A program made the translations under genes and the position numbers. 64,000 bases of DNA from Iningainema tapete BLCC-T55 (GTDB lineage: Bacteria > Cyanobacteriota > Cyanobacteriia > Cyanobacteriales > Nostocaceae). Where the stretch lies: NCBI RefSeq assembly GCF_014698965.1, contig NZ_JACXAE010000036.1, positions 114,444 through 178,443 on the forward strand, read 5' to 3'. Of this stretch, positions 5,162 to 48,925 are shown one piece after another. The notes beneath the pieces are model-generated. The model was not told where the DNA came from and did no database searches. It saw nothing but the letters and a program-made list of their open reading frames with translations. How positions within the stretch are numbered: position 1 is the stretch's first letter; the number at the start of each line of letters is the position of its first letter.

Positions 5162-5169
5162 AAAAACAT

Positions 5170-5238
5170 TTCTTGTGGGATGAGCATCTTGCCCGTCCCT
5201 TACAATTAAGGGTAGGCAGTATGCCTGCTCCACAAGAA
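5170..5238. terminator. Long hairpin repeat between convergent genes
   Basis: Outer arms TTCTTGTGG (5170-5178) and CCACAAGAA (5230-5238) enclose further pairing (GCCCGTCCCTTA / TAAGGGTAGGC). It lies between the helicase (+) and the YdcF-type gene (-), so it may end both transcripts. The sequence style also fits a dispersed cyanobacterial repeat. Confidence 0.5.
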
Positions 5239-5266
5239 TTATCCTCAGAGTAAGCAACGCCAAATT

Positions 5267-6052: not shown

Positions 6053-6226
6053 TCAAGTTATCTCGTTTGACTGTTTTCTCTGCCATGTTAACCAAACAGA
6101 AGTGCAGATGCAGTCTCATATAATAACTAAACCGTGTGATTTTCCTTCTATATTATTAATCAACATTCTAAAAGTTGTACAATCCCCGTGTCAGACTTTG
6201 ATTACTGACTACGAGGAGTGACAAAA

Positions 6227-6853
6227 ATGAATATTATACAGGGTAAAAAATTTACTCGCGTCTTGACTGTGGTGGCGATCGCGATTATTGCCATTACCAC
6301 TTTCGCTTTTAGTCTACCAGCCTACGCGCAAAACTCGCTCTGCCGAGCAACCAAAGTAGACACTCCCATCTTTCAAGTTGCCTCGACAACTTCTAACGCT
6401 ATTCGGATTATCCCCAAAGATGCGCGGGTTACACTAGCTTACATCCCAGCACCCGGAAGCCAATTTGCTGAACTTCAATCTCCAAGTGGCTTTATTCAAA
6501 CCGCTGTACTTAAACAGTGCGGTACACCTGGTGATGGCGGTGGTGGGAATCCTTGGGATAAACCGACAATTGGTACAGATTGTCGGCAAGTAGTACGTCC
6601 CCAGAATGGAGTTAATATTCGTCGCTTACCGATTACAAACGCAGAGATTGTTACCAAAGTTTTTCCTGGCGACAGAGTTTTCATCACTTTAACGACGGGT
6701 GATGCGGTTAAAACGTACAGAGGGGAAAATTATATATGGGTAGAAGTTGATTTACGTCAAACTTTAGGCAACCAATTTACTGGTACTGGTTGGATGTTTA
6801 ATACTGATTTGGTAAATTCTCCAAATACGAGCAATTTGGCTTATTGTAACTAA
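6227..6853 (+). CDS. Secreted SH3-domain protein
   Basis: A 208-residue protein. The ATG at 6227 is preferred over an in-frame GTG at 6218, because the GTG lies inside the AGGAG ribosome-binding site. A clear signal peptide (MNIIQGKKFTRV, hydrophobic stretch, 'SLPAYAQ') predicts export. Two SH3b-like segments follow: 'CRATKVDTPIFQVASTTSN..IRIIPKDARV' and 'CRQVVRPQNGVNIRRLPITN..IVTKVFPGDRVFI', joined by a Gly-rich linker (GTPGDGGGGNPW). Bacterial SH3 domains usually bind cell-wall peptides. It is a single gene with no operon partners. Confidence 0.75.
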   Translation: MNIIQGKKFTRVLTVVAIAIIAITTFAFSLPAYAQNSLCRATKVDTPIFQVASTTSNAIRIIPKDARVTLAYIPAPGSQFAELQSPSGFIQTAVLKQCGTPGDGGGGNPWDKPTIGTDCRQVVRPQNGVNIRRLPITNAEIVTKVFPGDRVFITLTTGDAVKTYRGENYIWVEVDLRQTLGNQFTGTGWMFNTDLVNSPNTSNLAYCN

Positions 6854-13197: not shown

Positions 13198-14181
13198 TTA
13201 TCTATTCTTTCTCGCCACAAATTGCACAATAAACACTGCGGCAATATTTACCAACAGAGTCAAAGCAAACAAAATTAAACCTAAATACGTTAAAGCGCCA
13301 AGGTGTAATTGATCTTGAGCTTCAGCAAATTCATTGGCTAATACAGAGGGAATTGAATAAGCAGGTTCCAGCAAAGAAGGGTTGATTTGAGCAGAGTTAC
13401 CAATCACCATAGTTACAGCCATTGTCTCACCTAAAGCTCTTCCTAATGCCAGCATTGCCGCAGCAACAACTCCGGAGAATGCTGTAGGGAGTATGACTCG
13501 AAAAATAGTTTCCCATCGAGTAGAACCTAAAGCCATAGAGCCAGTACGTAACTCTTTCGGAACTACTAGCAACACATCACGACTAATTGCTGCCATTGTG
13601 GGTAAGATCATAATCGCCAGAATTGTACCTGCAGTTAATAAATTAAATCCAGCAGGACTTGGTGTATTGAACAAGGGTATCCAACCGAAAGCAGTAGATA
13701 GCAAATTTTGTACAGGCGTAAAGAACGGAATAAAGATATAAATACCCCATAACCCGATGATTACGCTAGGAATGGCGGCAATTAGCTCGACAATAAACGC
13801 TATGGTTCTACGAGTTGAGGGTGGCAGAAAGTCTTCACTTGTAACTAAAGCTACCGCAAGACCAATGGGTACGGCTAATAGAATCGCGATCGCACTACTT
13901 ACCAAAGTGCCATATATGTATGGTAATGCCCCAAAAACTAAATTTCCTGTATCCCATTCTTGGCTAAATAAGAACCCCAGTCCAAATTTCTGCAACGCCG
14001 GGGTAGCTTCGCGCAGGATAATCCAACTTATCCAAAACAGCACAGTAACTGTGAAAGCGGCAAATATATAAGTTAGCCAGGTGAATGCTTTGTCTAGCTT
14101 CAAGTTCAGATCGCGGCTAACTGTAATGTCAAGATTTTCATCAACCAAATTTGGTTGGTTTGTATATGTTGGTTCAGGCAT
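13198..14181 (-). CDS. pstC: Phosphate ABC transporter permease PstC
   Basis: About 327 residues from the ATG at 14181 (MPEPTYTNQPN); a GTG at 14190 would add three residues, and neither has a clear ribosome-binding site. It has six predicted membrane segments. The permease loop 'VPKELRTGSMALGSTRWETI' and 'LGRALGETMAVTMVIGNS' are typical of PstC. It pairs with PstA to carry phosphate through the inner membrane. It is the second gene of the pst operon, about 95 bp after pstS. Confidence 0.94.
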   Translation of the reverse strand: MPEPTYTNQPNLVDENLDITVSRDLNLKLDKAFTWLTYIFAAFTVTVLFWISWIILREATPALQKFGLGFLFSQEWDTGNLVFGALPYIYGTLVSSAIAILLAVPIGLAVALVTSEDFLPPSTRRTIAFIVELIAAIPSVIIGLWGIYIFIPFFTPVQNLLSTAFGWIPLFNTPSPAGFNLLTAGTILAIMILPTMAAISRDVLLVVPKELRTGSMALGSTRWETIFRVILPTAFSGVVAAAMLALGRALGETMAVTMVIGNSAQINPSLLEPAYSIPSVLANEFAEAQDQLHLGALTYLGLILFALTLLVNIAAVFIVQFVARKNR

Positions 14182-29271: not shown

Positions 29272-29778
29272 TTAAAGTTGTTTGCAATCCTCTAGCCCAG
29301 TCAGTAGCTTGAGTAGCAGCAAATAAAGTTGCTCCTGTTCCTGCTCATTTAAACCAGAAAGCAACTGGCGCTCATGCTCCACATGTTGCGGAATCAGTTC
29401 ATCAATGAGGTCATATCCCTTCTGAGTCAATCGCACTAACCAACACCGTCGATCGCTCGTGGCATCATACCGCTCAACTAAACCCCGTGCTTCCAAGCGA
29501 TCAACGCGATTGGTGATGGAAGCTGGTGTCACCAGAACAAATTGAGCTAATTGAGAAAGAGTCATCCCCTCCGGTGGCGAAGAACGGCGCAGGGTTGCGA
29601 GGACTCCAAACGTTGCCGTGTTTAAGTCATACCGGGCAAAGAGCTTTTCAGTTGCCTTGGAGAGTTCTAAGGCGGAACGAAGCACTGCCAGCACTCGCAC
29701 CATCGGGCGTAGATCTATTTCTGGTCGCGTCACTTTCCAGTCGAGCGCTACTTGTCTAATCGTATCTGCTTTGTTCAT
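29272..29778 (-). CDS. MarR family transcriptional regulator, copy A
   Basis: 168 residues with a standard MarR winged helix: 'ATFGVLATLRRSSPPEGMTL', 'LAQFVLVTPASITNRVDRLE', 'GLVERYDATSDRRCWLVRLT'. The last residues (EDCKQL) differ from copy B because the 3' end runs into a rearranged junction. It is divergent from the VOC gene, with a palindromic operator between them (29921-29949), so it very likely represses the VOC-hydrolase genes and itself, with a small aromatic ligand as releaser. Start ATG at 29778. It is about 97% identical to the copy at 35412-35909 by eye. Confidence 0.9.
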   Translation of the reverse strand: MNKADTIRQVALDWKVTRPEIDLRPMVRVLAVLRSALELSKATEKLFARYDLNTATFGVLATLRRSSPPEGMTLSQLAQFVLVTPASITNRVDRLEARGLVERYDATSDRRCWLVRLTQKGYDLIDELIPQHVEHERQLLSGLNEQEQEQLYLLLLKLLTGLEDCKQL

Positions 29779-29920
29779 CTTTAACGAGTGAGTTAACTAC
29801 GACTGAGTGACCAAGAACTGTTCAACCGCCCAAAAACAACACTCTAGCAACTTAAGAGCGTGAGTAGAGCGACGAGTTCAACCATTGATATTTTAGCTCT
29901 AAATATTAACTTATTTGTAA

Positions 29921-29965
29921 TTTAGACATTAAATAGTTTAACGTCTAAAGATTTAAAGCTATAAT
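29921..29965 (+). promoter_or_regulatory. MarR operator overlapping the VOC promoter, copy A
   Basis: TTTAGACATTAAA-tag-TTTAACGTCTAAA (29921-29949) is a 29-bp palindrome with one mismatch between arms. TTTAAC (29937-29942) and TATAAT (29960-29965) are spaced 17 bp, a good sigma-70 promoter for the VOC gene; its -35 lies inside the right operator arm. Confidence 0.7.
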
Positions 29966-30006
29966 TTGAGCAACAACAGTAGTTATTCTTGAAGAGGTTA
30001 TATTCC

Positions 30007-30447
30007 ATGACCCAGAAGCAAACCGTCAATGGGATTGTTGAATCCGTGTTATATGTCGAGGATTTGGCACACTCAGTCGAGTTCTATCAAGACTTATTCG
30101 GATTTGAAAAAGAGATTTTGGATGAGATGATCTGTGTACTCCGGATACCCAATCAACAAGCCCTCATCCTGTTCCCCAAAAGCATCGCTCAGGAGCCTGG
30201 TCGGGCAACGTCTCCCGTCGGTACGGTATTCGGAGTGATTCCTCCTCATGGTGGGAGTGGTCGCTTGCACGTAGCATTCTCAATTGAGGCGTCTAACCTT
30301 GAGTTTTGGGAACAACGACTGGCTTCAAAAGGTATCCCAATCAACAGCAAAGTTCATTGGAAACGGGGTGGTTGGAGCCTGTATTTCCGCGACCCGGATG
30401 AACACCTCCTTGAATTGATCACTCCGGGTCTGTGGACATTCTATTGA
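30007..30447 (+). CDS. VOC family protein (glyoxalase/dioxygenase fold), copy A
   Basis: About 146 residues from ATG 30007, preceded by GAAGAGG; an in-frame TTG at 29989 is less likely. The fold is clear: 'VESVLYVEDLAHSVEFYQDL' (first beta-alpha unit), 'GRLHVAFSIEASNLEFWEQR' (second unit with a metal-type His), and 'WSLYFRDPDEHLLELITPG' with the closing Glu. His/His/Glu positions suggest a metal site. VOC proteins include glyoxalases, ring-cleaving dioxygenases and drug-binding proteins; the substrate here is unknown. It is co-oriented with the HOD-like hydrolase 79 bp later and controlled from the operator before it. Confidence 0.85.
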   Translation: MTQKQTVNGIVESVLYVEDLAHSVEFYQDLFGFEKEILDEMICVLRIPNQQALILFPKSIAQEPGRATSPVGTVFGVIPPHGGSGRLHVAFSIEASNLEFWEQRLASKGIPINSKVHWKRGGWSLYFRDPDEHLLELITPGLWTFY

Positions 30448-30526
30448 TGCTGACATGGGAAACCCAACTAAGGAACGCGAGTGTTAAGTTTACCGAGTGG
30501 ATTAACCTACAGTATTGGATGTATGT

Positions 30527-31360
30527 ATGGATAGGCTAACTGGAAAATCAAAACTTGCCTTCGACGACATAGGAACAGGCGAACCTGCCTTACTCTTGTT
30601 TCCAGGATGGTGCGCGGACCGGGGGATCTTGGCTGCACTTGCGTTCGTCGAAAGCAAAAAGCGAAGAGTTATCAATGTCGATTTACTGGGACATAACGAA
30701 TCACAGCTTCCAGAAGGAGACTTTGGCAGTGAAGATATGATCCGTGAAACTATTAAGCTTGTAAATTCACTTGACATAAATGAATTCGTCACAGTCTCAG
30801 TAGCACACGCTGGATGGATAGCGATTGAACTAAGACGTAGGTTGGTTCATCGCGTTCCAAAGATGGTCTTTCTGGAGTGGATCATTATTGAGCCGCCTGT
30901 GATCTTCTTTGAAACCTTAGATCAGATACAAAAACCCGATCAATGGCAAAGTGCGCGTGACGCACTATTCATCGGTTGGTCGTTAGGTGATCCTAACCTC
31001 GCCAAACCCTTCGATGAGTTTATGACAAATTACGATTTCGACATGTGGTCGCGTGCGGGTCGAGAAATAGGCAGATCGTACAGAGAATTTGGCAGTGCTT
31101 TGCGCTTTCTTGAGACGCTTGCTCCAGCTCCAACAGTGCTCAATATTTACTCGCCAACGCAAATGAAGAATCTTTATTCCCAACCGGATGACACCAAGTA
31201 TCTTGAAGCACAACAAGTTTTTGCAAACAAACACCACTGGTATCATATTTATAGATCGAGTGCCAAGAGCCATCTGCCTTCGGTCGAAGTTACGCAGGAA
31301 GTCGCGGACGCAATTGAAAGTTTCCTTTCCGATTCTACAGGGGAAGGTAAGAAGGGGTAG
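30527..31360 (+). CDS. Alpha/beta-hydrolase related to HOD/QDO cofactor-free dioxygenases
   Basis: 277 residues from ATG 30527. Several pieces match my recollection of Arthrobacter HOD: 'LLLFPGWCADRG' (PGWC), 'MWSRAGREIGRSY', 'NIYSPTQ' (compare IFSQPTE), and 'HHWYHIYRSS..SHLPSVEV' (compare HPWFSYAK..THFPAIDV), which supplies the catalytic His. At the nucleophile elbow HOD has SHSHGGW, whereas this protein has SVAHAGW (Ala93), so Ser is lost. In HOD that Ser is not essential for catalysis, which fits a dioxygenase-like or binding role rather than an esterase. The shortened copy at 36628 lacks this core. The MarR neighbour suggests induction by an aromatic compound, possibly a quinolone. Confidence 0.7.
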   Translation: MDRLTGKSKLAFDDIGTGEPALLLFPGWCADRGILAALAFVESKKRRVINVDLLGHNESQLPEGDFGSEDMIRETIKLVNSLDINEFVTVSVAHAGWIAIELRRRLVHRVPKMVFLEWIIIEPPVIFFETLDQIQKPDQWQSARDALFIGWSLGDPNLAKPFDEFMTNYDFDMWSRAGREIGRSYREFGSALRFLETLAPAPTVLNIYSPTQMKNLYSQPDDTKYLEAQQVFANKHHWYHIYRSSAKSHLPSVEVTQEVADAIESFLSDSTGEGKKG

Positions 31361-35411: not shown

Positions 35412-35909
35412 TTAGTCCTCTTCTAGCCCTGTCAGTAGCTTAAGTAGCAGCAAATAAAGTTGCTCCTGTTCCTGCTCATTTAGACCAGAAAGCAACTGGC
35501 GCTCATTCTCCACATGTTGCGGAATCAGTTCATCGATGAGGTCATATCCCTTCTGAGTCAGACGTACTAACCAACATCGTCGATCGCTCATGGCATCATA
35601 CCGCTCAACTAAACCCCGTGCTTCCAAACGATCAACGCGATTGGTGATGGAAGCTGGTGTAACCAGAACAAATTGAGCTAATTGAGAAAGAGTCATCCCC
35701 TGCGGCGGCGAAGAACGGCGTAGGGTTGCGAGGACTCCAAACGTTGCCGTGTTTAAGTCATACCGGGCAAAGAGCTTTTCAGTTGCCTTGGAGAGTTCTA
35801 AGGCGGAACGAAGCACTGCCAGCACTCGCACCATCGGGCGTGGATCGATTTCTGGTCGCGTCACTTTCCAGTCGAGCGCTACTTGTCTAATCGTATCTGC
35901 TTTGTTCAT
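35412..35909 (-). CDS. MarR family transcriptional regulator, copy B
   Basis: 165 residues, nearly identical to copy A (29272-29778); differences include DPRP for DLRP, PPQG for PPEG and a native C-terminus LTGLEED. The winged-helix core is complete, so the protein should still work and may bind both operators. It is divergent from VOC copy B, with a slightly decayed operator between them. ATG at 35909. Confidence 0.9.
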   Translation of the reverse strand: MNKADTIRQVALDWKVTRPEIDPRPMVRVLAVLRSALELSKATEKLFARYDLNTATFGVLATLRRSSPPQGMTLSQLAQFVLVTPASITNRVDRLEARGLVERYDAMSDRRCWLVRLTQKGYDLIDELIPQHVENERQLLSGLNEQEQEQLYLLLLKLLTGLEED

Positions 35910-36051
35910 CTTTAACGAGTGAGTTACCTACGACTGAGTGACCAAGAACTGTTCAACCGCCTAAAAACAACACTCTAGCAACTTAAGAGCGTGAGTAGAG
36001 CGACGAGTTCAACCATTGATATTTTAGCGCTAAATATTAACTTATTTGTAA

Positions 36052-36096
36052 TTTAGACACTAAATAGTTTAACGCCTAAAGATTTAAAGCTATAAT
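36052..36096 (+). promoter_or_regulatory. MarR operator and VOC promoter, copy B
   Basis: TTTAGACACTAAA-tag-TTTAACGCCTAAA (36052-36080) is the copy-B version of the palindrome at 29921, with one extra mismatch in each arm. TTTAAC (36068-36073), a 17-bp spacer and TATAAT (36091-36096) are kept. Confidence 0.65.
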
Positions 36097-36137
36097 TTGA
36101 GAAACAACAGTAGCTATTCTTGAAGAGGCTATATTCC

Positions 36138-36578
36138 ATGACCCAGAAGCAAACCGTCAATAGGATTGTTGAATCCGTGTTATATGTCGAGGACTTGGCA
36201 CACTCAGTCGAGTTCTATCAAGACTTATTCGGATTTGAGAAAGAGATTATGGATGAGATGATCTGTGTACTCCGGATACCCAATCAACAAGCCCTCATCC
36301 TGTTCCCCAAAAGCATCGCGCAGGAACCTGGTCGGGCAACGTCTCCCGTCGGTACGGTATTCGGGGTGATTCCTCCTCATGGTGGGAGTGGTCGCTTGCA
36401 CGTAGCATTCTCAATTGCGGCGTCTGACCTTGAGTTGTGGGAACAACGACTGGCTTCAAAAGGTATCCCAATCAACAGCAAGGTTCATTGGAAACGGGGT
36501 GGTTGGAGCCTGTATTTCCGAGATCCGGATGAACACCTCCTTGAATTGATCACTCCGGGTCTGTGGACATTCTATTGA
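36138..36578 (+). CDS. VOC family protein, copy B
   Basis: About 146 residues from ATG 36138, nearly identical to copy A (few changes: IVESVL kept, EIMDEM for EILDEM, AASDLELW for EASNLEFW). All three VOC motifs and the closing 'LLELITPGLWTFY' are intact, so the gene should be functional even though the hydrolase behind it is broken. The promoter and operator are also kept. Confidence 0.85.
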   Translation: MTQKQTVNRIVESVLYVEDLAHSVEFYQDLFGFEKEIMDEMICVLRIPNQQALILFPKSIAQEPGRATSPVGTVFGVIPPHGGSGRLHVAFSIAASDLELWEQRLASKGIPINSKVHWKRGGWSLYFRDPDEHLLELITPGLWTFY

Positions 36579-36627
36579 TGGTGACACGCGAAACCCAAAG
36601 AAGGAAAGCGGGTGTTGGGTTTACCAA

Positions 36628-36972
36628 GTGGATCAACCTACAGTATTCATCAATGTCGATTTACTGGGACATAACGAATCACAGCGTCCAGAAGGAGAAT
36701 TTGGCAGTGCTTTGCGCTTTCTTGAGACGCTTGCTCCAGCTCCAACAGTGCTCAATATTTACTCGCCAACGCAAATAAAGAATCTTTATTCCCAACCTGA
36801 TGACACCAAGTATTTTGAAGCACAACAAGTTTTTGCAAACAAACACCACTGGTATCACATTTATAGATCGAGTGCCAAGAGCCATTTGCCTTCTGTCGAA
36901 GTCACCCAGGAAGTAGCGGACGCAATTGAAAGCTTTCTTTCCGGTTCTTCTGAGGAAGGTAAGAATGGGTAG
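36628..36972 (+). pseudogene. HOD-like hydrolase, copy B, with two deletions
   Basis: Compared with copy A, the sequence jumps from the spacer (CTACAGTATT) to TCAATGTCGATTTACTGGG, losing the start and ~45 residues, then from LPEG directly to FGSALRFLETLAPAP, losing ~120 residues including the nucleophile elbow. The second gap lies between two copies of TTTGGCAGTG present in copy A (near 30722 and 31087). The remaining 114 residues keep the C-terminal His region but cannot form the hydrolase fold. Confidence 0.85.
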
Positions 36973-37015: not shown

Positions 37016-38164
37016 ATGAGTCTGTTTCAACGTATTGGTATTGAAGGATATCGCCGCTTATATAATGTGGAAATAGAAATGCGACGATTAACTGTGATGA
37101 TTGGTGCTAATAGTGTAGGCAAAACTTCCCTTTTGGAAATTTTTTTACTACTAGCAGCATCAGCGAAAGGGCAGTTAGAGTCAAAGATTTCAGAACTGAG
37201 TGGTCTGAGTGAAATCATGACACGCGATACAGCAAATAGTATAGCGTTTTCATTATCAATGAGCGTTCCTGACGGGGAAGCGTTGAATTACTACCTCAAA
37301 CTTGTTCCCAAAGGACAGTTTTACGAAATTGCTTTGGAAACCCTGACGCAGCAGCGCGACATCAACGCTTCTCAATCTTTCAAGTATATTGACTCTCGTG
37401 GTTTTGATGTAAAATATTCAACTCCACAGCAATACGGACTAATCCGTCCTAACTGGGAACACAATCCCTATGAAACTTCCCTGTCTCAAGTACCAAAGAT
37501 GTACCGGGAACCAGAGAATTTTCGCAAACAATTGGGTTCATGTACATTTTACGGAGCATTGAATGTTGCACCTAAAAGTCCAGTTCGCTTACCTCAATCA
37601 ATGCGTCCAGCAACATTACCTGGTGCTAATGGAGAAGATTTGGTGTCCTGCCTATATTATCTCAGAGAAACCGATCCAGAGCGATTTGAAATTATAGAAG
37701 ATACTTTGAGGGCTGCTTTTCCAGATTTTGAACGGTTAGGGTTTCCTCCAGTAGCAGCAGGAACTTTGGCAATGACTTGGAAGGACAAAAATTTCTCGCA
37801 TCCTCTTTATATGCATCAACTATCTGAGGGTACTTTGCGGTTTTTGTGGTTAGTAACACTTTTGCATAGTCCAGATTTAACTACGGTGACTTTAATAGAT
37901 GAACCAGAAGTAAGTTTGCACCCTGAATTATTGCAACTACTTGCCGATGTAATGCGAGAAGCTTCTAAAAATACTCAGTTAATTGTGGCTACTCATTCAG
38001 ATAGATTAATCCGATTTTTACAACCACAAGAAGTGCTAGTTTGTGATGCTGAAGATGGACTAACCACTATGACTTGGGCTGACTCTTTGGATTTAGAAAA
38101 ATGGCTAGAAGATTATAGCTTAGATCAGCTTTGGGCAATGAACTTAATTGGTGGTCGTTCATGA
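37016..38164 (+). CDS. AAA family ATPase (RecF/OLD-like, AAA_21 type)
   Basis: 382 residues. Walker A is 'GANSVGKTS' (from residue 30), the ABC-type signature is 'LSEGTLRFLWL', Walker B is 'VTLIDEPEVSLHPELLQLLA' and the switch is 'LIVATHSDRLIRFL'. This is the SMC/RecF-like ATPase class used in OLD, PARIS and similar defence proteins, without a fused nuclease. The stop overlaps the start of the DUF4276 gene (ATGA), so the two are coupled. A partial copy lies at 34962-35336 and a shorter echo near 38809-38835. Start ATG at 37016. Confidence 0.9.
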   Translation: MSLFQRIGIEGYRRLYNVEIEMRRLTVMIGANSVGKTSLLEIFLLLAASAKGQLESKISELSGLSEIMTRDTANSIAFSLSMSVPDGEALNYYLKLVPKGQFYEIALETLTQQRDINASQSFKYIDSRGFDVKYSTPQQYGLIRPNWEHNPYETSLSQVPKMYREPENFRKQLGSCTFYGALNVAPKSPVRLPQSMRPATLPGANGEDLVSCLYYLRETDPERFEIIEDTLRAAFPDFERLGFPPVAAGTLAMTWKDKNFSHPLYMHQLSEGTLRFLWLVTLLHSPDLTTVTLIDEPEVSLHPELLQLLADVMREASKNTQLIVATHSDRLIRFLQPQEVLVCDAEDGLTTMTWADSLDLEKWLEDYSLDQLWAMNLIGGRS

Positions 38165-38769
38165 AAATTGCTGTTCTGGTTGAGGGCGCTACGGAAAAAG
38201 CTTTTAAGCCAATTTTAGAAGATTTTCTCAAGCAGCGCTTGCAACAACAGATGCCTAAACTTAAGTTTATACCTTATGATGGTCGCATTCCCAAAGCAGA
38301 AAAACTCAAGCGTATTGTTGAAAATTTGCTCAGTGGGAGAGATGCTTATGATGCTGTAATCGCACTAACAGATGTCTATACGGGAACAAATGATTTTGCA
38401 GATGCTGCCGATGCCAAAGCTAAAATGACAGATTGGGTAGGGAACAATTTTAAGTTTTATCCCCATGCAGCGCAGCATGATTTTGAAGCTTGGCTGTTAC
38501 CTTATTGGTCAACAATTCAAAGATTAGCTAAGCATAATAAGTCAGCACCTGGAGGTTTACCTGAGCAAGTCAATCACAATAATCCACCATCATATCGTAT
38601 TCGAGAAATCTTTGAAATAGGTAAATGTAAACGCAGTTACAGTAAAGTTCGTGATGCAGCAACTATCTTGAGAGGAAATAATTTGATGGATGCAGTAAAC
38701 TTGTGTCCTGAATTAAAGGCATTTTTGAATACAATTCTGTCTCTTTGTGAGGTAGATTTGCTCCTATAG
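38161..38769 (+). CDS. DUF4276 family protein (TOPRIM-like)
   Basis: 202 residues from ATG 38161, which overlaps the ATPase stop by four bases; an in-frame upstream start at 38131 is unlikely. 'MKIAVLVEGATEKAFKPIL' carries the Glu of a TOPRIM-type motif, and 'YDAVIALTDVYTGTNDFADA' carries the acidic Asp pair; 'HAAQHDFEAWLLPYW' is a family motif. DUF4276 is a TOPRIM-related family usually next to an AAA_21 ATPase, as here. The layout is like PARIS (AriA ATPase + AriB TOPRIM), but AriB is DUF4435, so this is a related, not identical, pair. The last residues (LSLCEVDLLL) may be altered by rearrangement. Confidence 0.85.
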   Translation: MKIAVLVEGATEKAFKPILEDFLKQRLQQQMPKLKFIPYDGRIPKAEKLKRIVENLLSGRDAYDAVIALTDVYTGTNDFADAADAKAKMTDWVGNNFKFYPHAAQHDFEAWLLPYWSTIQRLAKHNKSAPGGLPEQVNHNNPPSYRIREIFEIGKCKRSYSKVRDAATILRGNNLMDAVNLCPELKAFLNTILSLCEVDLLL

Positions 38770-39923: not shown

Positions 39924-40499
39924 TTACCAAACAGAGGTTAAGTTTAAAACAAATCCCGGTAGTACATCTTCTCCTGATAAAGTATTTGGATGATCTAATA
40001 CTTCGACATCTTGACCTTGCCTGTATATCTCGACTTTGCGGTTTTTGCGGTCAATTAGCCACCCCAAACGGGCTTGATTTTCCATGTATTCTCTCATCTT
40101 TGCCCGTAAGGTTTCCATGCTATCAGAGGGAGAACGCAGTTCCACAACGAAGTCTGGGCAGATAGGAGCAAAACCTTCTTTTTCTTTCTCTGTGAGTGCT
40201 TGCCATCGTTCTAATTTAACCCAAGAAGCATCAGGGGAGCGATCGGCTCCATTTGGTAAGTGAAATCCCGTAGAAGAGTTAAACGCCACGCCCAGCTTAG
40301 TTTGACGGTTCCACAACCACAGTTGTCCTTCGATATCTAAGTTACGGTAGCCCGTATCGCTTCCAGTAGGGGGCATGACGATTAATTCTCCTGTAGCAGT
40401 TCTCTCTAGCCTTAAGTCACGGTTAACAGTGGCAAGTTCGATGAACTGCTCGTGACTGACTTTGAATGTTGTGGGAATTGTGATGGTAGGGTTAAGCAT
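39924..40499 (-). CDS. Uma2 family (DUF820) endonuclease-like protein
   Basis: 191 residues with the normal full family length: 'FIELATVNRDLRLERTATGE', 'GELIVMPPTGSDTGYRN', 'RSPDASWVKLERWQAL', 'CPDFVVELRSPSD' (catalytic-type Asp and Glu), 'LRAKMREYMENQARLGWLID' and 'VLPGFVLNLTSVW'. Cyanobacteria carry dozens of such genes; no function is proven. ATG at 40499. It lies between the direct repeats with the methyltransferase, on the opposite strand. Confidence 0.9.
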   Translation of the reverse strand: MLNPTITIPTTFKVSHEQFIELATVNRDLRLERTATGELIVMPPTGSDTGYRNLDIEGQLWLWNRQTKLGVAFNSSTGFHLPNGADRSPDASWVKLERWQALTEKEKEGFAPICPDFVVELRSPSDSMETLRAKMREYMENQARLGWLIDRKNRKVEIYRQGQDVEVLDHPNTLSGEDVLPGFVLNLTSVW

Positions 40500-41723: not shown

Positions 41724-44222
41724 TTACAGTTGGCAACGAGTCGCACGGTCAGAGATCAAAACTACTAACATCCATCCATCCCCAAAGGTAGGTATAGGTA
41801 GGTGTCCCTCCACCGCTCCCATCGAAAAATTCAGTTCGCTATAGCGCCGCCACCCGGACTCGCCTCGCACTTCTTTTGCCTCTAGAGAATCTCGTTCTTC
41901 ATTATACCACCCCACGATGGTCGCAAAACGTTGGTATTCTTGCTCAGAAATATTCTTCAAATCGCGAATTCCCAATTCTTGGGTAAGAATCTTTTTTTGC
42001 ACGCTGAAACCAAAACGCCCTTGACTATTTTCTACCCAATACTGGTCAATTCTTCTCAAGTCTGAGCAAGAGAACTTATTGATAGATTCTTTATCAAAGT
42101 ATTCCTCGTTTTCTCGCCTCGCAATGTATAACATTAGAGATGCTGTTTTTTCATGAGCTTGCTTCAACTGTTTATTTTTTAGTAAGTTTGCTAACTCGTT
42201 ATAAAAGTGTTCTTTTAAAGAATCTTCTACTTCGTGCTTGAGCGACGAGTTCTCGTTATTGTTATTAGAAAGTAAATCGATAAACTCTCTATGAAGAGCC
42301 TCTACAACTTCTTTTGATAAAATTTTTTTATCTATGGGTATATTTTCATTAAAGGGAGGGCTAATGATGGAAGTTTTCTTTTTCAAGTCTTTTAAAGAAT
42401 TAAAAGCTTTTTTGTATGAATTGATTGCCTCAGTATTTTCCTGCTTCTCCTTTTGGAAATTACTTTGAGTTTTATAGGTTAAAATCTGAATCTGTAGGCT
42501 TTCATCAGAATTCTCATTTTTTAATTTTACGTTTTTCAAGGAATTCTCAACTTCTTGTTTCCAATTTGGCTCTTTAAGTTTTAAATAAGCATAAGCCATT
42601 CCTGTATGTAGAATGTCTTGTTTTAAATTGTCATCTTGAATGTTAACAGATTGACCTGCTTGTGAAAGTAATTCTTTAGCTTCGTCATAAAAACCTTTAT
42701 CTTTAAGTTTTCCTGCTAATTCAGCGAGTTTCCCAACGTTTTGAAGATATTGCTGAGTTGTGATAAGTTGCTTGCCGGAACGATATGCTAGAACTCCTAA
42801 AGTTCCTGCTATTGACAAAGTCACAGCTAAAACAATCCCACCGATACGCATTCGTTGTTGTGCTTTCTTATTTGCCTCACTTAGTACCAAATTCCTTTTC
42901 TCTACTGCTTCTCTATCCTTCCTCTCACGTTCCAATTGAGCTTCTTTTTCTAATATCGCGATCGCTTCTTCTTTCTCCTTAGCTTGACTAGCTGCCAAAA
43001 ACTCCCTATCCTGATAATTTAAGCTTTTATCACACGCCCATGAGAGCGCATCCTGTAACGCCTTTCCTCGCAACAATCGGGATTCGTCCTTACTACCAGA
43101 AGCAACCCAAAACCGCAAATTCTCAGAATATGGACGTAAATTCCTCAACTGAGTTTCAATCCAATTCTGGTCAAATATTTCCCTATAAATATGATTGTAA
43201 ACTCTTAACTTATTTTGCTGTCTTACAACTAACCCTGAAAGTTGTAATTCGCTTTGTTCTAGAGTGTCATCTGCTGGAACTTCAGCTTTCTCCTCCCGAC
43301 GGATATGTTGATATAATTCTAGTAAATACCCTGCCCGTTGCTCGTCTCTGAGAATTCTGTCACGAATCGTTCTTAAATGCTCTGGTTCATCAAGAGATTC
43401 CCAATTTTCTATAATGCGCGATCGCACAACCTGCTCAACAGAACGGAGATTTTCTTGCTCAGATTCCTCAACCATAAACTGACACAATTTCTGAGTCAGA
43501 AAAGGTTGTCCCCCAGTCCATTCTAAAATGTCCTGCATCACAGCATGAGGGTGAGAATATTTCCCACGCAACCCCTTTTCTAATGGCTCGACTTCTTCTA
43601 ATTGAAACCCCTTGAGACTGATAGCTTTCCCAATATTAAAAGGAGTCCGTTTTTTATCTGCAATCAAATTGCTTGGTGATGCCACTCCCAACAAACAAAA
43701 TGTGAGGCGATTGTATTCAGGATTATCAACACGCAGATTGTAACAAGAACGGATAAATGCAAAGAAGTCATCAGTGGGAAAGTTGAGACTGAGAACACTA
43801 TCAATTTCATCTATAAAAATAACAATATTTTCTTGAATTTCTGCAAGCAGTATCTTTTCTATAAAATTCCCAAATCGCCACAAAGATGAATTAAGAAGGT
43901 TCTTCTCCCACCAAGATGGAAAATCGATATCCAAGTCAAAGCTATCAATGAGCTTAACAATTAAATCCGCGTACCAATTTTCCTGTGTCGCACTTTGGAT
44001 ACTGACAGAAGATAAATCAATAGATGCACACACCACGCCTGCATCTGTTAGTCGGCTCATTGTTCTCACACGCAAACTAGACTTTCCACTTTGTCTAGAG
44101 TTCAGCACATAACAAAACTTAAGATCTGTAAGTAATTCATACAACTCATCGTCGGCTGAGCGCTTCACGTAAGTGCTGGCATTTTCGGGTAAGCTTCCAG
44201 AAAAGATATATTCATCAAACAT
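41724..44222 (-). CDS. AAA-like / TM / GUN4-domain protein
   Basis: 832 residues. The AAA_35-type NTPase is N-terminal: 'FCYVLNSRQSGKSSLRVRTM' (Walker A), 'IVIFIDEIDSVLSLNF' (Walker B), 'WTGGQPFLTQKLCQFM'. A coiled coil (about 420-460) and one membrane helix (about 468-488, 'GIVLAVTLSIAGTLGVLAY') follow, then a helical region of TPR-like units. The C-terminal ~110 residues form a GUN4 domain: 'DLRRIDQYWVENSQGRFGFS', 'FATIVGWYNE', 'GWRRYSELNFSMGAVEGHLP'. GUN4 binds porphyrins, so this protein may link an NTPase switch at the membrane to tetrapyrrole or chlorophyll state. It starts 3 bp after the upstream AAA gene, so it is in the same operon. Confidence 0.85.
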   Translation of the reverse strand: MFDEYIFSGSLPENASTYVKRSADDELYELLTDLKFCYVLNSRQSGKSSLRVRTMSRLTDAGVVCASIDLSSVSIQSATQENWYADLIVKLIDSFDLDIDFPSWWEKNLLNSSLWRFGNFIEKILLAEIQENIVIFIDEIDSVLSLNFPTDDFFAFIRSCYNLRVDNPEYNRLTFCLLGVASPSNLIADKKRTPFNIGKAISLKGFQLEEVEPLEKGLRGKYSHPHAVMQDILEWTGGQPFLTQKLCQFMVEESEQENLRSVEQVVRSRIIENWESLDEPEHLRTIRDRILRDEQRAGYLLELYQHIRREEKAEVPADDTLEQSELQLSGLVVRQQNKLRVYNHIYREIFDQNWIETQLRNLRPYSENLRFWVASGSKDESRLLRGKALQDALSWACDKSLNYQDREFLAASQAKEKEEAIAILEKEAQLERERKDREAVEKRNLVLSEANKKAQQRMRIGGIVLAVTLSIAGTLGVLAYRSGKQLITTQQYLQNVGKLAELAGKLKDKGFYDEAKELLSQAGQSVNIQDDNLKQDILHTGMAYAYLKLKEPNWKQEVENSLKNVKLKNENSDESLQIQILTYKTQSNFQKEKQENTEAINSYKKAFNSLKDLKKKTSIISPPFNENIPIDKKILSKEVVEALHREFIDLLSNNNNENSSLKHEVEDSLKEHFYNELANLLKNKQLKQAHEKTASLMLYIARRENEEYFDKESINKFSCSDLRRIDQYWVENSQGRFGFSVQKKILTQELGIRDLKNISEQEYQRFATIVGWYNEERDSLEAKEVRGESGWRRYSELNFSMGAVEGHLPIPTFGDGWMLVVLISDRATRCQL

Positions 44223-44225
44223 AAC

Positions 44226-45257
44226 TTACTCCAAACGTGCCGAGAAGTACTGACGGTATAAATCGCAGCTAGGAATGCAATCATTACGATTAATTTTAAC
44301 TAACCCTAGACTGTGCAATTTGAATGTAATTTTAGGATTAAACTGCACGGGTTCATTCGTCATTACCACTTGCTTATATGCCGCCTCTAGCTCCGAATCA
44401 TCTTGCAAGCATTCTAATTGTTCTCGTAAGTGGTAGCTAAAGATTCCCTCTTCTGTTGGTGCAAGGGTTAGTAGTTCCTCTAAGGATATTTCTTGACTTT
44501 TGAGATTAGCTAGAGCTTCCTGCACTAAATAAGGATGCCCTCCAACCATCTCCATTAGCTGGCTTACCCCATCTTCTCCTAACTGTTTGTCTATTCCATA
44601 AAGCCGAGCCATTTCTTTTACCTGTTGCTGTTCAAAGTAGGGTAATTCAATAGCTAACCCAACATTAAATGGTGAGCGATTGGTATCCAATGTGGGATAA
44701 ACTTCTGTAGAATTAACCACCACTAACCGCAATTTCTGCCAAATTTTACCCATTCTGTCTCCTTGTTTGGCAGTTTCATACCAACTCCGCAAGAGCAAGC
44801 AGAATTCGGAGAAAATATTTTCGTATTTAAATAACCGCTCGAAATTATCTAGAGCCAAGACTAAGGGACTATCAATATTTGATAATAAATATTTTTGAAA
44901 ATAACGGGTACAGCTTGTATTAACTCCCATACTATCTTGCCAGTAGTCGGATAATTTGGGTTCAAATTCTAAAATATCTGAAACATCAACGCACAACCAT
45001 TGTAAAAAAGTTTTTAAATCTGCTAATACAGAATTATCGGCAAGTTTCAAATCTAATTTAGCTATTCTATAACCCTGCTGTCTAGAATAATCCAGCAACT
45101 TCTCTAACAGTAACGTTTTTCCCATTTTCTGCGGTGCTTTAATCCGAATTAACGCACCAGAACGTAAAATTGCCTTGTAGCATTTCTCCTCAATGGGAGG
45201 TCGCTCAACATATATTGTAGTTGGTTCCACTGTAGAATTGTCAGATGGTAGGGGCAT
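44226..45257 (-). CDS. AAA-like domain NTPase (AAA_35 type)
   Basis: 343 residues. 'IYVERPPIEEKCYKAILRSG' is the usual AAA_35 entry, Walker A is 'IKAPQKMGKTLLLEKLL', Walker B is 'PLVLALDNFERLF', and 'MVGGHPYLVQEAL' is a sensor region. It overlaps the CHAT gene by 109 bp in another frame. In several cyanobacterial proteins a CHAT domain and this AAA domain are one polypeptide, so the pair may be a split form. NTPase of a conflict-type switch; target unknown. Confidence 0.85.
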   Translation of the reverse strand: MPLPSDNSTVEPTTIYVERPPIEEKCYKAILRSGALIRIKAPQKMGKTLLLEKLLDYSRQQGYRIAKLDLKLADNSVLADLKTFLQWLCVDVSDILEFEPKLSDYWQDSMGVNTSCTRYFQKYLLSNIDSPLVLALDNFERLFKYENIFSEFCLLLRSWYETAKQGDRMGKIWQKLRLVVVNSTEVYPTLDTNRSPFNVGLAIELPYFEQQQVKEMARLYGIDKQLGEDGVSQLMEMVGGHPYLVQEALANLKSQEISLEELLTLAPTEEGIFSYHLREQLECLQDDSELEAAYKQVVMTNEPVQFNPKITFKLHSLGLVKINRNDCIPSCDLYRQYFSARLE

Positions 45258-45853
45258 AGAAGCTGACCAACTTTTCGTGTCAAAACTGGTATCGACCCGC
45301 TTGCTAGATCTTCCATTTGAATGGCAACCAAACCTTCCTCATAAGCTCTTGTCACCACATCATCAAGGTTATTTAAATTGTCGTATCCTAACCCATCATA
45401 AAACCCTACAGCAAAGGCAATGGCTGCTTTATCGCCAATGGGTTGGTTCATGCCAATAGCATAATTAATGTGTTGGCTAATCTCACGAGCGGGTTTTTCT
45501 GAATAACAGGCATTGAGGACTACACAGTTGACATATTCTGCGTGTAACTTAAACAATGCCGCCAGTCCCTGTGGTGGTACGGGTTTATGGTTGCCCCCAT
45601 CATCTTCTAAAACTAAACAACCGTCTGGTGTACCGTGACCGCAAAAATGGACAATGAAGGGACATTCTTGTGCGATCGCCCTACGAATATCCTGTGGACG
45701 TACAGCGGTTCTGATTCTCATCTCGAATTGTTCTCGCCGGATTGCCCTTCGGATCGCGTCCTCAATTTCCCGAATTTCCTTATCCAAACGCAGCCCGTCT
45801 GGAATCGCTGTCAAAATTAAGATTTTGCGCTGTTGATCTGTGTTACCATTCAT
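45149..45853 (-). CDS. CHAT-domain caspase-like protease
   Basis: 234 residues. The catalytic pair is His73 in 'IVHFCGHGTPDGCLVLEDD' and Cys116 in 'CVVLNACYSEKPA', with the usual 'KILILTAIPDGLRLDKEIRE' start and 'KAAIAFAVGFYDGLGY' and 'SIPVLTRK' sequence. After VGQLLC the last ~35 residues (PYHLTILQWN...) do not look native and lie in another frame of the AAA gene. A single-base shift near 45250 would join the two as CHAT-AAA. In conflict systems CHAT cleaves host or partner proteins on signal. ATG at 45853. Confidence 0.85.
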   Translation of the reverse strand: MNGNTDQQRKILILTAIPDGLRLDKEIREIEDAIRRAIRREQFEMRIRTAVRPQDIRRAIAQECPFIVHFCGHGTPDGCLVLEDDGGNHKPVPPQGLAALFKLHAEYVNCVVLNACYSEKPAREISQHINYAIGMNQPIGDKAAIAFAVGFYDGLGYDNLNNLDDVVTRAYEEGLVAIQMEDLASGSIPVLTRKVGQLLCPYHLTILQWNQLQYMLSDLPLRRNATRQFYVLVR

Positions 45854-45952
45854 TCTTAATCTGGATTTGTGGAAATGGAGGTTGACTCAATCAAGCTACA
45901 ACTCCTCTATGTTCTCATAGATGCCAGTTAAATCAACTTATGCAGCTAAACC

Positions 45953-47911
45953 TCACGCAATCAACAACCGAGCTTTATCAGCTTGTTCTTGCACGGTTTC
46001 CTTGAGCCACTCACTAATAGCTTTTCCCAGCTTAATAGCGATTGTGGGATCTTTGGTTAAAGTCTCTTGAATTTTTTGCTGCAACTGTGGTTTCTGCTGA
46101 TACGCTAGTTCGTCAATTTTCTCATTTGGCACAAATTTGCGTATCCAGCCAGGTATATCTATATCCTTCACCAACGATTCACCTACAAAGTAAGCTACGA
46201 TCCCCAGAATAGGTGCAATTATTCCCGCAAAAATTAGGATATGAAATAATCCTGCTAAAACAACGCCTACAATTAAAGCCACAAGGTGTCCCACAAATAT
46301 AGAAAGTCCGGTAAAATCACTCAAGGATATTTCTGTGGGAACCTTACCCGTGCGATCGCTCAACTCAATAGTTTTACTCCCAATTGTACCCAGTGGTAAA
46401 CCATACTTACTACAGATAGAATCTGTTTTTTCCCTCACCTCATTCTGAACTTTTGACAACCACTCAACCAAACACCCAGTCATTTTCTCATTAGCATCAC
46501 TTCCCGTTAACCAAGCTTTGGCGAGTTGCTCGATTTCCGACTCCAGATTGGAAAGCGTGATAATCTTCCGATTTCGCCAAGATTGCACACTAGGCTTAAT
46601 TACCTCATCTACCAAACCATTTGCCAGTGCCTCTGCTAATTTCTCCAAAAACTCAGGTATGTGATTCCCAACAATACCTGTCAATTCTCTGTCTAGGAAT
46701 TGACTAATTTCTTCCATAAACCAGCCCGTGCGAATATACACCCGTCCCCAACGTGCCAATCCTCTAGCAATAGAAAGTTCAGGTTCTCCATCTCTTTTGC
46801 AAGGTAAATTCGGAAATACCTCTTGGCATATTTCCGGCACAAAACCCATTTTAGAAGCACTACCTGTAAGGAGGATAGCACTAGGTTGAATACCTTGCTG
46901 CTCTAACTTTTGTTTTGTCACCTGCAATTGATCGTCAAAAGCATCACGCCAACTTTTGTTACCTAGTTCTGGCAGAGACTGGTTAATGATGGCATTCATA
47001 ATTTTGCCATTAACTAGGGGCAAAAACTTAAATTTTCTTTGAATATCTTCACTTCCAACATTTACAAGATTATCCTCGTAAGTATCTTGATAGTTAAAAT
47101 ACTCTTCTTTAGCTTTACGACAGCGGAGTTCACAGCGATTTTTGTATAACGGGCTTTGCGCAAAAATCTTCTCTAGCTGCTCAATTTCTTCTAATTGCAA
47201 AATTTCTTCATCTTTAAGCAATTCTCCCAGTCGTAAAATCTCTTCATGTCCCTCTCGATATTGTCGATAACATTCAAGAGTTTTCTTGAGAATTGCTTTA
47301 TCAATTAAGGATGCACCCAAGTCATAGCCAAAATCTATTGGGGTATCAGACATACCTTTGACGAGGGTGTAATCTGTGGTGGACGAACCAATATCAATTA
47401 CCAGTACAGAATTTTGTAATTCTTCTATGGTGAATATGCCACTTTCTTTAGCGTGCATCAAAGCAGCGCGAGATTCTTTGACTACGCGAAGATTTGGCAA
47501 GCAATCTTCAGAAAGAATTTGTTTGTAAGTCTCAATTTCTTCTTGCCACCATCCTGATGGACAACCGATGAAAAAGTAATTGTTATCTTCTAACTGGATT
47601 TGGTTTGTCTCTATTAAATGTTTGTAGATGGTATTAACAAAATCTTTGAGATTTTTTTTGTATACTGTATCATCAAATTTTCTTGTTTTAAAGGCTATTT
47701 CAAAGATAGCAGCATCGGGCATCTGATACGCCATTTCCCCGATGATAGTTCCTCTTTGCGGATGATGGGCGATGGCGGTAGTTTGGCTTTTTCTGTTATT
47801 GATTAGCAGGCTTTGAGGTGTATCTTGGTTGTTTGCTCGTACCCAGGTAAGAGCGGTTTCTCCGTGTCCTAAATCGAATCCGATGATTTTAATATCTTGG
47901 TAATTATACAT
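45953..47911 (-). CDS. Hsp70-like actin-fold ATPase with C-terminal membrane segments
   Basis: 652 residues. Hsp70/actin ATPase motifs: 'IIGFDLGHGETALTWV' (phosphate 1), 'VLVIDIGSSTTDYTLV' (phosphate 2), 'ILLTGSASKMGFVPEI' (adenosine). A long helical region follows instead of the Hsp70 substrate-binding domain, then two hydrophobic stretches (about 545-600, 'GHLVALIVGVVLAGLFHILI'), predicting a membrane anchor. It is thus not DnaK but a conflict-system Hsp70. The GrpE-like gene 12 bp upstream on the same strand would serve as nucleotide-exchange partner. The CHAT gene lies 100 bp downstream. Confidence 0.85.
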   Translation of the reverse strand: MYNYQDIKIIGFDLGHGETALTWVRANNQDTPQSLLINNRKSQTTAIAHHPQRGTIIGEMAYQMPDAAIFEIAFKTRKFDDTVYKKNLKDFVNTIYKHLIETNQIQLEDNNYFFIGCPSGWWQEEIETYKQILSEDCLPNLRVVKESRAALMHAKESGIFTIEELQNSVLVIDIGSSTTDYTLVKGMSDTPIDFGYDLGASLIDKAILKKTLECYRQYREGHEEILRLGELLKDEEILQLEEIEQLEKIFAQSPLYKNRCELRCRKAKEEYFNYQDTYEDNLVNVGSEDIQRKFKFLPLVNGKIMNAIINQSLPELGNKSWRDAFDDQLQVTKQKLEQQGIQPSAILLTGSASKMGFVPEICQEVFPNLPCKRDGEPELSIARGLARWGRVYIRTGWFMEEISQFLDRELTGIVGNHIPEFLEKLAEALANGLVDEVIKPSVQSWRNRKIITLSNLESEIEQLAKAWLTGSDANEKMTGCLVEWLSKVQNEVREKTDSICSKYGLPLGTIGSKTIELSDRTGKVPTEISLSDFTGLSIFVGHLVALIVGVVLAGLFHILIFAGIIAPILGIVAYFVGESLVKDIDIPGWIRKFVPNEKIDELAYQQKPQLQQKIQETLTKDPTIAIKLGKAISEWLKETVQEQADKARLLIA

Positions 47912-47923
47912 TTTTGTTGATTG

Positions 47924-48925
47924 TTAATTTTTATCAGATGATGCAGGCTCAATTACGCTACCTGGTAAAAGTACTTGATTATCTTTAACAAAGGCGTGCT
48001 TTAGGGTGATGTAATCTGTTATTTGTGGATCGAGGCTCGGTTCAAAGTAGAACATTGTCCAAGGTTCAATTCCTAAGTCTTCCTGACTAGGTTGATAAAC
48101 TCGTGCTTCAATTCCGTAGCGTCTCAAAATTGTCTCTGCCTGTTCGATGCGTCTACGTACAGCAGTTGGGAGTTGAGTTTGTTCGTCTAGGGCATCTGCC
48201 ATCAAGTCTTGTAGGTACTCTAACAAGTCGAGATTATTTTCTAAACCGGGTTTGAGTGTCTCTTCTCTTGCCCCATAGCCAGCAACTGTAATGTCGATTG
48301 ATTGAAAAGCTTGAAAGAGATAGTCAAGTAATTTATCAATATCTATACTTATTTTAACTTGGTTTTTAGGTAGTTCTGGCTCTTGGGCAACATCTGTTTT
48401 CACGGGTGATGGCTGGGTGATTTTTCCAATCACTCCTCCCGTGATTGCTCCTATTAACCCCCATGAATATCCCCCTGCCAACGTTCCTGCTATACCACCA
48501 GCAAGTAGGCTACTAATTATATCGCGGCTTTGCTGCACTTTTTGTAAGAAAGCCTGTGTGCGATCGCCAATCGTTGTTAAAGCTTGCAGATTTTTATCTG
48601 CTTGAATAATTTTTGTAACTGGTAATATATTATAGCTATCACTCCTCTCACCCTCGCCCACAGAAAGCAAGTTGGCAGTTGCAGTGAAATCTTGCAGTTT
48701 GATTAATAGCAAACTGCTAATGTACTGACTGAGTGACTTTAACATTGTTGTGGCAAGGCGTGCTTGTGGTGGAGTTAATCCGCCGATGTAATCACCATTG
48801 AAGTCGGCAAGCGCCTTGATCTCATCTTGGATAATCTTGACTGCTTGCTCAGTTGTCTGAGCAGCTTCTAGTTGAGATTTTAGCTTGTCTTTTATCTCTT
48901 GGTAATGAGATACAAGTGTTTTCAT
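47924..48925 (-). CDS. GrpE-like partner of the Hsp70 protein (probable)
   Basis: 333 residues from ATG 48925 (MKTLVSHYQEIKDKLKSQLE); an upstream alternative at 48949 is less likely. It has an N-terminal coiled coil, a Gly/Ala-rich segment that may insert in a membrane (about 150-175, 'LLAGGIAGTLAGGYSWGLIG'), and a C-terminal region with 'YLQDLMADALDEQTQL', 'ETILRRYGIEARVYQP' and a beta end 'HAFVKDNQVLLPGSVIEP', which resembles the GrpE beta-wing domain. The GrpE reading is inferred from this end and from the gene position just before the Hsp70 gene; sequence similarity is weak. Confidence 0.55.
   Translation of the reverse strand: MKTLVSHYQEIKDKLKSQLEAAQTTEQAVKIIQDEIKALADFNGDYIGGLTPPQARLATTMLKSLSQYISSLLLIKLQDFTATANLLSVGEGERSDSYNILPVTKIIQADKNLQALTTIGDRTQAFLQKVQQSRDIISSLLAGGIAGTLAGGYSWGLIGAITGGVIGKITQPSPVKTDVAQEPELPKNQVKISIDIDKLLDYLFQAFQSIDITVAGYGAREETLKPGLENNLDLLEYLQDLMADALDEQTQLPTAVRRRIEQAETILRRYGIEARVYQPSQEDLGIEPWTMFYFEPSLDPQITDYITLKHAFVKDNQVLLPGSVIEPASSDKN

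Follow-up and report, generated by a model that had tools for sequence, protein, structure and literature searches.

The question that this locus raises is whether five neighbouring genes of the cyanobacterium Iningainema tapete BLCC-T55 make up one conflict system or whether separate units merely lie next to each other. The genes are found on contig 36 of a 9.5 Mb genome, in a stretch of 64,000 nucleotides analysed here as a whole (the window), and comprise five minus-strand open reading frames (ORFs) of 333, 652, 234, 343 and 832 amino acids (aa), labelled g1 (GrpE-like), g2 (Hsp70-like), g3 (CHAT), g4 (AAA) and g5 (AAA, membrane segment, GUN4); g3 to g5 are referred to as the trio. The original prediction described five same-strand genes with short spacings, and the ORFs and spacings are confirmed, with gaps of 12 bp (g1-g2), 99 bp (g2-g3) and 3 bp (g4-g5) and an overlap of 109 bp (g3/g4). 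Its claim of one five-gene operon and system, however, fails, in that none of the other loci examined brings homologs of all five together (0/18 and 0/80). With moderate confidence, we read the window instead as two separate two-gene modules side by side, the trio being a predicted membrane-spanning paired-ATPase switch for a likely CHAT protease, and likely cargo.

A Pfam scan of seven window proteins placed four domains above cut-off in the trio, namely CHAT in g3 (1.9e-7, 31.3 bits against a cut-off of 24), AAA_35 in both g4 (2.5e-130, 434.6 bits against 27) and g5 (2.7e-28, 99.2 bits against 27), and GUN4 at the end of g5 (3.5e-27, 95.7 bits against 29.2), and gave no family above cut-off for g1 or g2. 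The PADLOC model chat also matches g3 (4.8e-16), and the His73 and Cys116 noticed earlier, which we take to be the catalytic residues, are both present; from its sequence, g3 is likely to be a CHAT protease. The NTPase motifs ascribed to both AAA proteins are borne out by Walker A motifs in g4 and g5, and the two membrane proteins foreseen are g5, with a single hydropathy-defined helix between AAA_35 and GUN4, and g2, with a long hydrophobic stretch near its C-terminus. The GUN4 part of g5 matches solved GUN4 chains (7e2r, 1.3e-8). A PADLOC match of g5 to PD-T4-6 (PDLC04062) was dropped as evidence of defence, as it covers the GUN4 region only. PD-T4-6 calls by PADLOC in cyanobacteria may be GUN4 artefacts.

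The neighbourhoods of g2 were surveyed in two sets of loci, which are not independent because their organisms overlap: regions of up to about 20 kb surrounding g2 in 18 relatives, drawn from 60 genomes, and flanks of up to 6 kb around the best 80 of at least 454 confirmed relatives from a scan of 84,980 species, in which the trio genes were sought by their AAA_35 domains. Within the smaller set, g1 stands directly upstream of g2 in 17/18 loci, the exception (L048) having a fragmented g2, and no locus has relatives of CHAT, AAA_35 or the GUN4 protein near the pair (0/18). Among the best 80, g1 lies within 600 bp upstream of g2 in 75; it is 780 bp off in L207 and was not found in L172, L204 and L210, and L224 stops inside g2. 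None of these 80 loci carries the CHAT-AAA and AAA-GUN4 genes beside g1-g2. When their ORFs were clustered, g2 was represented in 79 loci and g1 in 77, and the largest other neighbour clusters reached 27 loci, for an antisense ORF within g2, and then 19 and 17. All 80 are cyanobacterial save one Phycisphaerales record, and the relatives of g2 include filamentous cyanobacteria such as Scytonema. A conserved gene order is seen for g1-g2, the five-gene order occurs in no other locus of the two sets, and g1-g2 is likely an independent, mostly chromosomal module. A linked GTPase was not seen among the seven window proteins scanned, nor did any other neighbour family exceed 27/80 loci, although no search by GTPase name was made.

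The other half of the locus keeps different company. At the 16 loci of the nearest g4 relatives, the paralog in the same genome included, relatives of g1 or g2 are absent (0/16), and 15/16 encode CHAT and AAA_35 as a single ORF, hereafter type A. The nearest relatives of g4, 63-80% identical to it, lie in longer open frames because CHAT is fused ahead of AAA_35. The sixteenth locus (L072) has separate CHAT and AAA_35 proteins, both bearing an EAD1 adaptor. A counterpart of g5, hereafter type B, follows downstream of type A in 15/16 close loci, being truncated in L064 and fragmented in L066; it was not found in L074. GUN4 was present in 13/14 type-B proteins scanned of the window clade, L060 being without it, and the truncated L064 gave no GUN4 match, where only a home-made profile was used. 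In L066, a partial GUN4 match at 4780-6438 shares an ORF with an M23 peptidase domain.

How, then, did the two modules come together? In one relative (L031), g2 and a homolog of the border gene beyond the trio (family name presumably Uma2-like) are 521 bp apart, the trio is absent, and synteny continues beyond g1. The interval from g2 to the border homolog measures 66, 122, 521, 521, 3354, 3811, 4733 and 5287 bp in eight relatives and 5453 bp in the window. Among the 23 closest loci of the 80-locus set, the border homolog is downstream of g2 in seven, and in the 4733-bp case it is a shortened ORF. Four long intervals were listed and ten of their ORFs scanned: L146 carries DarT and DarG; L147 carries ParD, ParE, an AAA_21 and a DUF4276 protein (these two by HEC-01 models) and a YhcG nuclease; L145 carries a DUF6932 protein and a helix-turn-helix (HTH) protein and, by eye, AAA_21/DUF4276 genes too; and the one ORF scanned in L163 gave no family. 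It is likely that the trio came as cargo to its place next to the separate Hsp70-type pair, in a variable interval where some relatives have toxin-antitoxin and defence genes. The surroundings resemble a cargo site, and being neighbours says little about a joint function. No excess of promoters or terminators over shuffled sequences was seen at the locus. As a separate observation, a gene pair at 37016-38769 of the window resembles, by eye, the AAA_21 and DUF4276 genes of L145 and L147, of which the L147 copies are matched by the HEC-01 models; in these two loci the pair falls within the cargo interval next to g2, and in the window just past it.

Copies are also present on plasmids. Type A matched 36 plasmid records (E<=1e-20) versus one for g2 (E<=1e-10); 31 of the 36 stand under genus names that we take to be cyanobacterial, and five show no genus. 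On four plasmid records, two AAA-like genes are annotated side by side, and phage records gave no type-A match. On plasmid p057_A of Nostoc sp. C057 (5498-9237), a gene for an IS630-family transposase sits between AAA-like ORFs and a GUN4 ORF, and apparently interrupts a type-B gene.

These neighbourhoods, of g1-g2 as well as of the type-A and type-B loci, led us to reject a single five-gene conflict system, with CHAT released jointly by an Hsp70/GrpE pair and the two AAA proteins, a reading that we hold to be very improbable. The shared strand and short spacings speak for it, and so does Scytonema sp. RU_4_4 (L148), the only one of the 80 loci with a type-A/type-B AAA_35 pair straight after g2. 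That pair, however, belongs to a different lineage (43% and 50% identity) and has patatin-AAA_35 and AAA_35-FHA-transglycosylase-transpeptidase architectures and penicillin-binding domains; neither g2 set keeps the five genes together, the site is empty in L031, the 16 close type-A loci are without g1 and g2, and plasmid records carry type A without g2. The L148 pair is flanked by a 363-bp direct repeat (96.7%) of the g2 3' end (7609-7971 and 13253-13615), which looks like an insertion with target-end duplication or an assembly artefact of a metagenome-assembled genome. A g2 remnant or flanking direct repeats of this kind were sought around the window trio and not found.

The trio is better understood as a member of a large family of AAA_35 ATPase pairs in cyanobacteria, in which type A carries swappable effectors and type B a membrane helix with swappable C-terminal modules. 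Searches with type A and type B each gave at least 150 matches, of which 150 were listed. For 62 of the 150 type-A matches listed, in 33 genomes, a type-B match lies within 3.5 kb downstream on the same strand; 15 of these pairs are close loci or the window itself, 40 more were fetched and 7 skipped. Of the 40 fetched loci, 38 yielded a type-B ORF; the sequence pieces of L089 and L114 lacked a complete one. The N-terminal effectors of the 40 type-A proteins comprise CHAT (14), TIR_2 (4), Trypsin_2 (4), GGDEF (3), kinase (1), cyclase (1) and EAD1 (1), and the C-terminal modules of the 38 type-B proteins WD40 (23) and GUN4 (2, by a home-made profile). A hydrophobic segment follows the ATPase in 48/52 type-B proteins. 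Other type-B relatives end in PBP_like_2 (L061), M23 (L066) or transglycosylase/transpeptidase (L148) modules, and because these are normally extracytoplasmic and the membrane helix is single, the C-terminal module is suggested to lie outside the cytoplasm.

The two subunits also diverge together. Leaving out the broken or unpaired loci L064, L066 and L074 and the two in which type B was not recovered (L089, L114), the distances among type-A and among type-B ATPase domains are correlated over 52 pairs (Mantel r 0.855), and remain so in the 38 pairs outside the window clade (0.825) and the 14 inside it (0.649), with 0/5000 permutations in each case. Comparisons within the same genome give r 0.872 (n=43); therefore, the co-divergence is not due to species relatedness. 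Within the CHAT/GUN4 clade, the Walker B of type A reads D-N-F-E in 14/14 proteins, that of the window included, with no Glu right after the Asp; in 40 other type-A proteins a simple pattern gave D-E-[VI]-D for 18, another motif for 7 and no match for 15. The D-N-F-E form would be expected to weaken hydrolysis by type A, which would make type B the active ATPase.

In the window, CHAT and AAA were described as two overlapping genes. The overlap is indeed there; the two genes, however, correspond to the one fused gene of the close loci, split here by a frameshift. Taken in CHAT-AAA order, the region spans 1628 nucleotides (nt), and a tblastn search with the fused L061 protein finds CHAT homology in frame +1 as far as nt 585, the AAA part being matched in frame +3 and starting at nt 609, so that the 109-bp overlap marks a frameshift in a variable linker. 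The frameshift may be natural or an assembly error. Accordingly, the window copy could be decaying, or its ATPase could be made as a free subunit from an internal start with CHAT docking non-covalently, or the sequence could be misassembled. If the first applies, the trio would be a dead or dying cargo copy in which the frameshift uncoupled CHAT from the switch and the locus is drifting. We judge this possible rather than probable. Other copies look broken too, with an internal TAG in one relative (contig G015:C19), the fragmented type B of L066 and the IS630 gene on p057_A, and an intact paralog pair of 532 and 818 aa (L059) is retained on contig 63 of the same genome. Set against this, both halves keep long open frames and intact motifs (234 aa for CHAT, 343 aa with its own ATG for the ATPase), the 832-aa type-B frame is intact, and the break falls within the variable linker.

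For an intact pair, we consider it most likely that the GUN4 of type B would be held on the far side of the membrane, sensing a tetrapyrrole or a tetrapyrrole-bearing protein; that the AAA_35 domains of type B and type A would form a matched hetero-complex; and that an ATP-dependent change of this complex would free or cluster CHAT, which would then cut cell proteins. With GUN4 and CHAT as the two ends, tetrapyrrole status would gate proteolysis. The NTP-driven membrane switch that had been proposed to release CHAT stays plausible for CHAT, the two AAA proteins and GUN4, in agreement with the anatomy, co-divergence and surroundings of the pairs, with Hsp70/GrpE as a likely separate module. Conflict is suspected on account of the effectors, the EAD1 adaptor and the cargo-like location. 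Tentatively, the family may even be a many-copy, split and membrane-spanning counterpart of NLR/STAND receptors in filamentous cyanobacteria, with the effector AAA_35 inside and the sensor facing the far side; in one clade, a GUN4 tetrapyrrole sensor located outside the cytoplasm or in the thylakoid lumen would be coupled to a CHAT death protease, with suicide or abortive infection as the answer to damaged photosystems or released pigment.

Several points weigh against the reading of the trio as a mobile paired-ATPase conflict switch. As the CHAT-AAA gene is split, the window copy may not work at all. The pair in L148, together with partial type-B matches located 3-4.5 kb upstream of g1 in L164 and L186, leaves some room for a link with the Hsp70-type pair. 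Of the 23 closest loci, 2 have the border homolog upstream of g1 and 14 showed no such homolog within the sequence fetched, and the cargo argument therefore rests on seven loci and L031. Nearest neighbours of type A and type B agree in 23/52 pairs, so that some re-pairing is possible, and the pairs compared were chosen as adjacent ones from the 150 matches listed per subunit. Finally, GGDEF, cyclase, kinase and LuxR/sigma-type HTH outputs on other type-A proteins suit ordinary signalling equally, and a plain signalling role is therefore also possible. Under that alternative, the AAA_35 pair would report light, redox or tetrapyrrole status across the membrane, and CHAT would process a regulator with no cell killing and no role in conflict. 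Besides those outputs (GGDEF 3, cyclase 1, kinase 1 and HTH domains among the 40 type-A proteins), it is favoured by the role of GUN4 as a tetrapyrrole-binding regulator (PMC7159879) and by the number of copies, up to at least 25 type-A matches per genome among those listed, which we judge high for suicide systems. We nevertheless judge it, too, possible rather than probable, given that the TIR, trypsin, CHAT and EAD1 partners overlap the effectors of published conflict systems, that the interval occupied by the window copy holds DarTG, ParDE and HEC-01-like genes in some relatives, and that copies reside on plasmids. The coordinates of the features are collected in the table below.

Features of the locus, in window coordinates
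Feature	Coordinates	Strand	Basis or remark
Border gene, far end of the variable cargo interval	39924..40499	-	Homolog 66-521 bp beyond g2 in four relatives
Type-B subunit (g5): AAA_35 ATPase (residues 8-351), one membrane helix (458-481), linker, GUN4 (670-811)	41724..44222	-	Pfam, hydropathy
Type-A subunit, ATPase part (g4): AAA_35, Walker A APQKMGKT, D-N-F-E at Walker B	44226..45257	-	Pfam, motifs, relatives
Type-A subunit, predicted CHAT peptidase part (g3): His73, Cys116; other frame than the ATPase part	45149..45853	-	Pfam, PADLOC, motif check
Linker stretch within which the frameshift lies	45245..45269	-	tblastn of the fused L061 protein
Hsp70-type ATPase (g2): actin-like fold (residues 6-399), helical C-terminal tail, hydrophobic hairpin (532-582)	45953..47911	-	Separate module
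g1, Hsp70-type ATPase partner: N-terminus helical, glycine-rich at ~141-175, C-terminal domain conserved and weakly GrpE-like in pattern	47924..48925	-	Adjacency to g2

The neighbouring module has a character of its own. The ATPase domain of g2 is actin-like and of the Hsp70 type. In the structure model, no strand follows residue 373, and hence no beta-sandwich substrate-binding domain is seen; residues 377-651 are helical or coil, with a predicted local distance difference test (pLDDT) score mostly of 70-90, but below 50 at 515-538 and 563-578. As modelled, g2 combines an ATPase domain of Hsp70 fold with a membrane tail made up of helices. Its partner is harder to place: Pfam GrpE matched 0/17 members of the g1 family at 0.1, the g1 model is weak (pLDDT 49, C-terminus below 50), and with this model Foldseek gave no match at E <0.001, a second fold search being no more decisive. 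By hhalign, g1 yielded P values of 0.089, 0.11 and 0.05 against main GrpE, 0.013-0.015 against GrpE paralogs, 0.0073 and 0.0037 (probability 8.9%, 90 columns) against both together, and 0.049 and 0.13 against two GrpE clusters, compared with 0.053 or more against unrelated families; the positive control, GrpE paralogs against main GrpE, reached a probability of 98.1. By these comparisons g1 is not recognisable as a GrpE, its conserved C-terminal domain shows a faint GrpE-like pattern, and kinship with GrpE is possible. A fusion of g1 and g2 was considered for the long Hsp70-like proteins P0168 and P0171 and rejected. By eye, these proteins (1083 and 1099 aa) instead contain two tandem Hsp70-type ATPase domains, with a long tail after the second only. 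Divergent GrpE paralogs beyond main GrpE were also noticed in several genomes (G000:C107, C9, C95 and relatives, L225-L242).

Elsewhere in the window, two near-duplicate gene runs are seen by eye at 29272-31360 and 35412-36972, about 6 kb apart and on the same strands. They consist of a protein starting MNKADTIRQVALDWKVTRPEID and a 152-aa MKRLYSMTQKQTVN protein, followed by a 281-aa ORF in one copy and an apparent 114-aa remnant in the other.

If the paired AAA_35 reading is true, a very numerous gene pair would become one testable class of signalling or immunity with a clear part list, and copies of GUN4 outside chlorophyll synthesis would gain a concrete role. The correction also matters in practice, as the five-gene Hsp70/CHAT/GUN4 set would be the wrong cloning target. 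No description of paired AAA_35 proteins was found in the open-access literature searched, though one may exist elsewhere; PF14516, AAA_35 with GUN4, and GUN4 with CHAT, AAA and conflict likewise returned no open-access paper, AAA_35 alone not being searched. The literature already contains tripartite receptors of effector, NTPase and sensor, as well as conflict and caspase proteins with GUN4. The original prediction knew of no description of GUN4 in such a set; its occurrence next to peptidases has precedents, as GUN4-caspase fusions are listed in PMC2853523 and GUN4 occurs in the conflict systems of PMC7159879.

Compared with DnaK/GrpE, the g1-g2 module shares an ATPase domain with the Hsp70 fold and differs in the modelled helical membrane tail, which takes the place of a beta substrate-binding domain, and in a g1 that is no recognisable GrpE. 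A theme of Hsp70 with GrpE has been tied to GAP1-N2 GTPases, mainly in actinobacteria and firmicutes (PMC7159879). The NTP-dependent conflict systems of multicellular prokaryotes treated in the same paper resemble the AAA_35 pairs in their swappable peptidase, TIR and nucleotide-enzyme effectors, in EAD1, which occurs in L072 and belongs to the EADs proposed there as homotypic adaptors, and in GUN4 as a cyanobacterial module. The core here, however, is the AAA_35 pair; there is no GTPase among the proteins scanned, and the Pfam scan found neither MoxR AAA nor vWA among the five genes. Cyanobacterial caspase-family proteins (PMC2853523) likewise couple a peptidase to GUN4 or WD40, doing so within one polypeptide, whereas two ATPases and a membrane come in between here. 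Finally, STAND NTPase defence proteins such as Avs and bacterial NACHT combine an N-terminal effector, a central NTPase and a C-terminal variable sensor (PMC10907252), and the AAA_35 pair keeps this order of parts but divides them between two neighbouring genes, each encoding an ATPase, and has a membrane helix separating the ATPase from the C-terminal module and Pfam AAA_35 in the place of an annotated STAND family.

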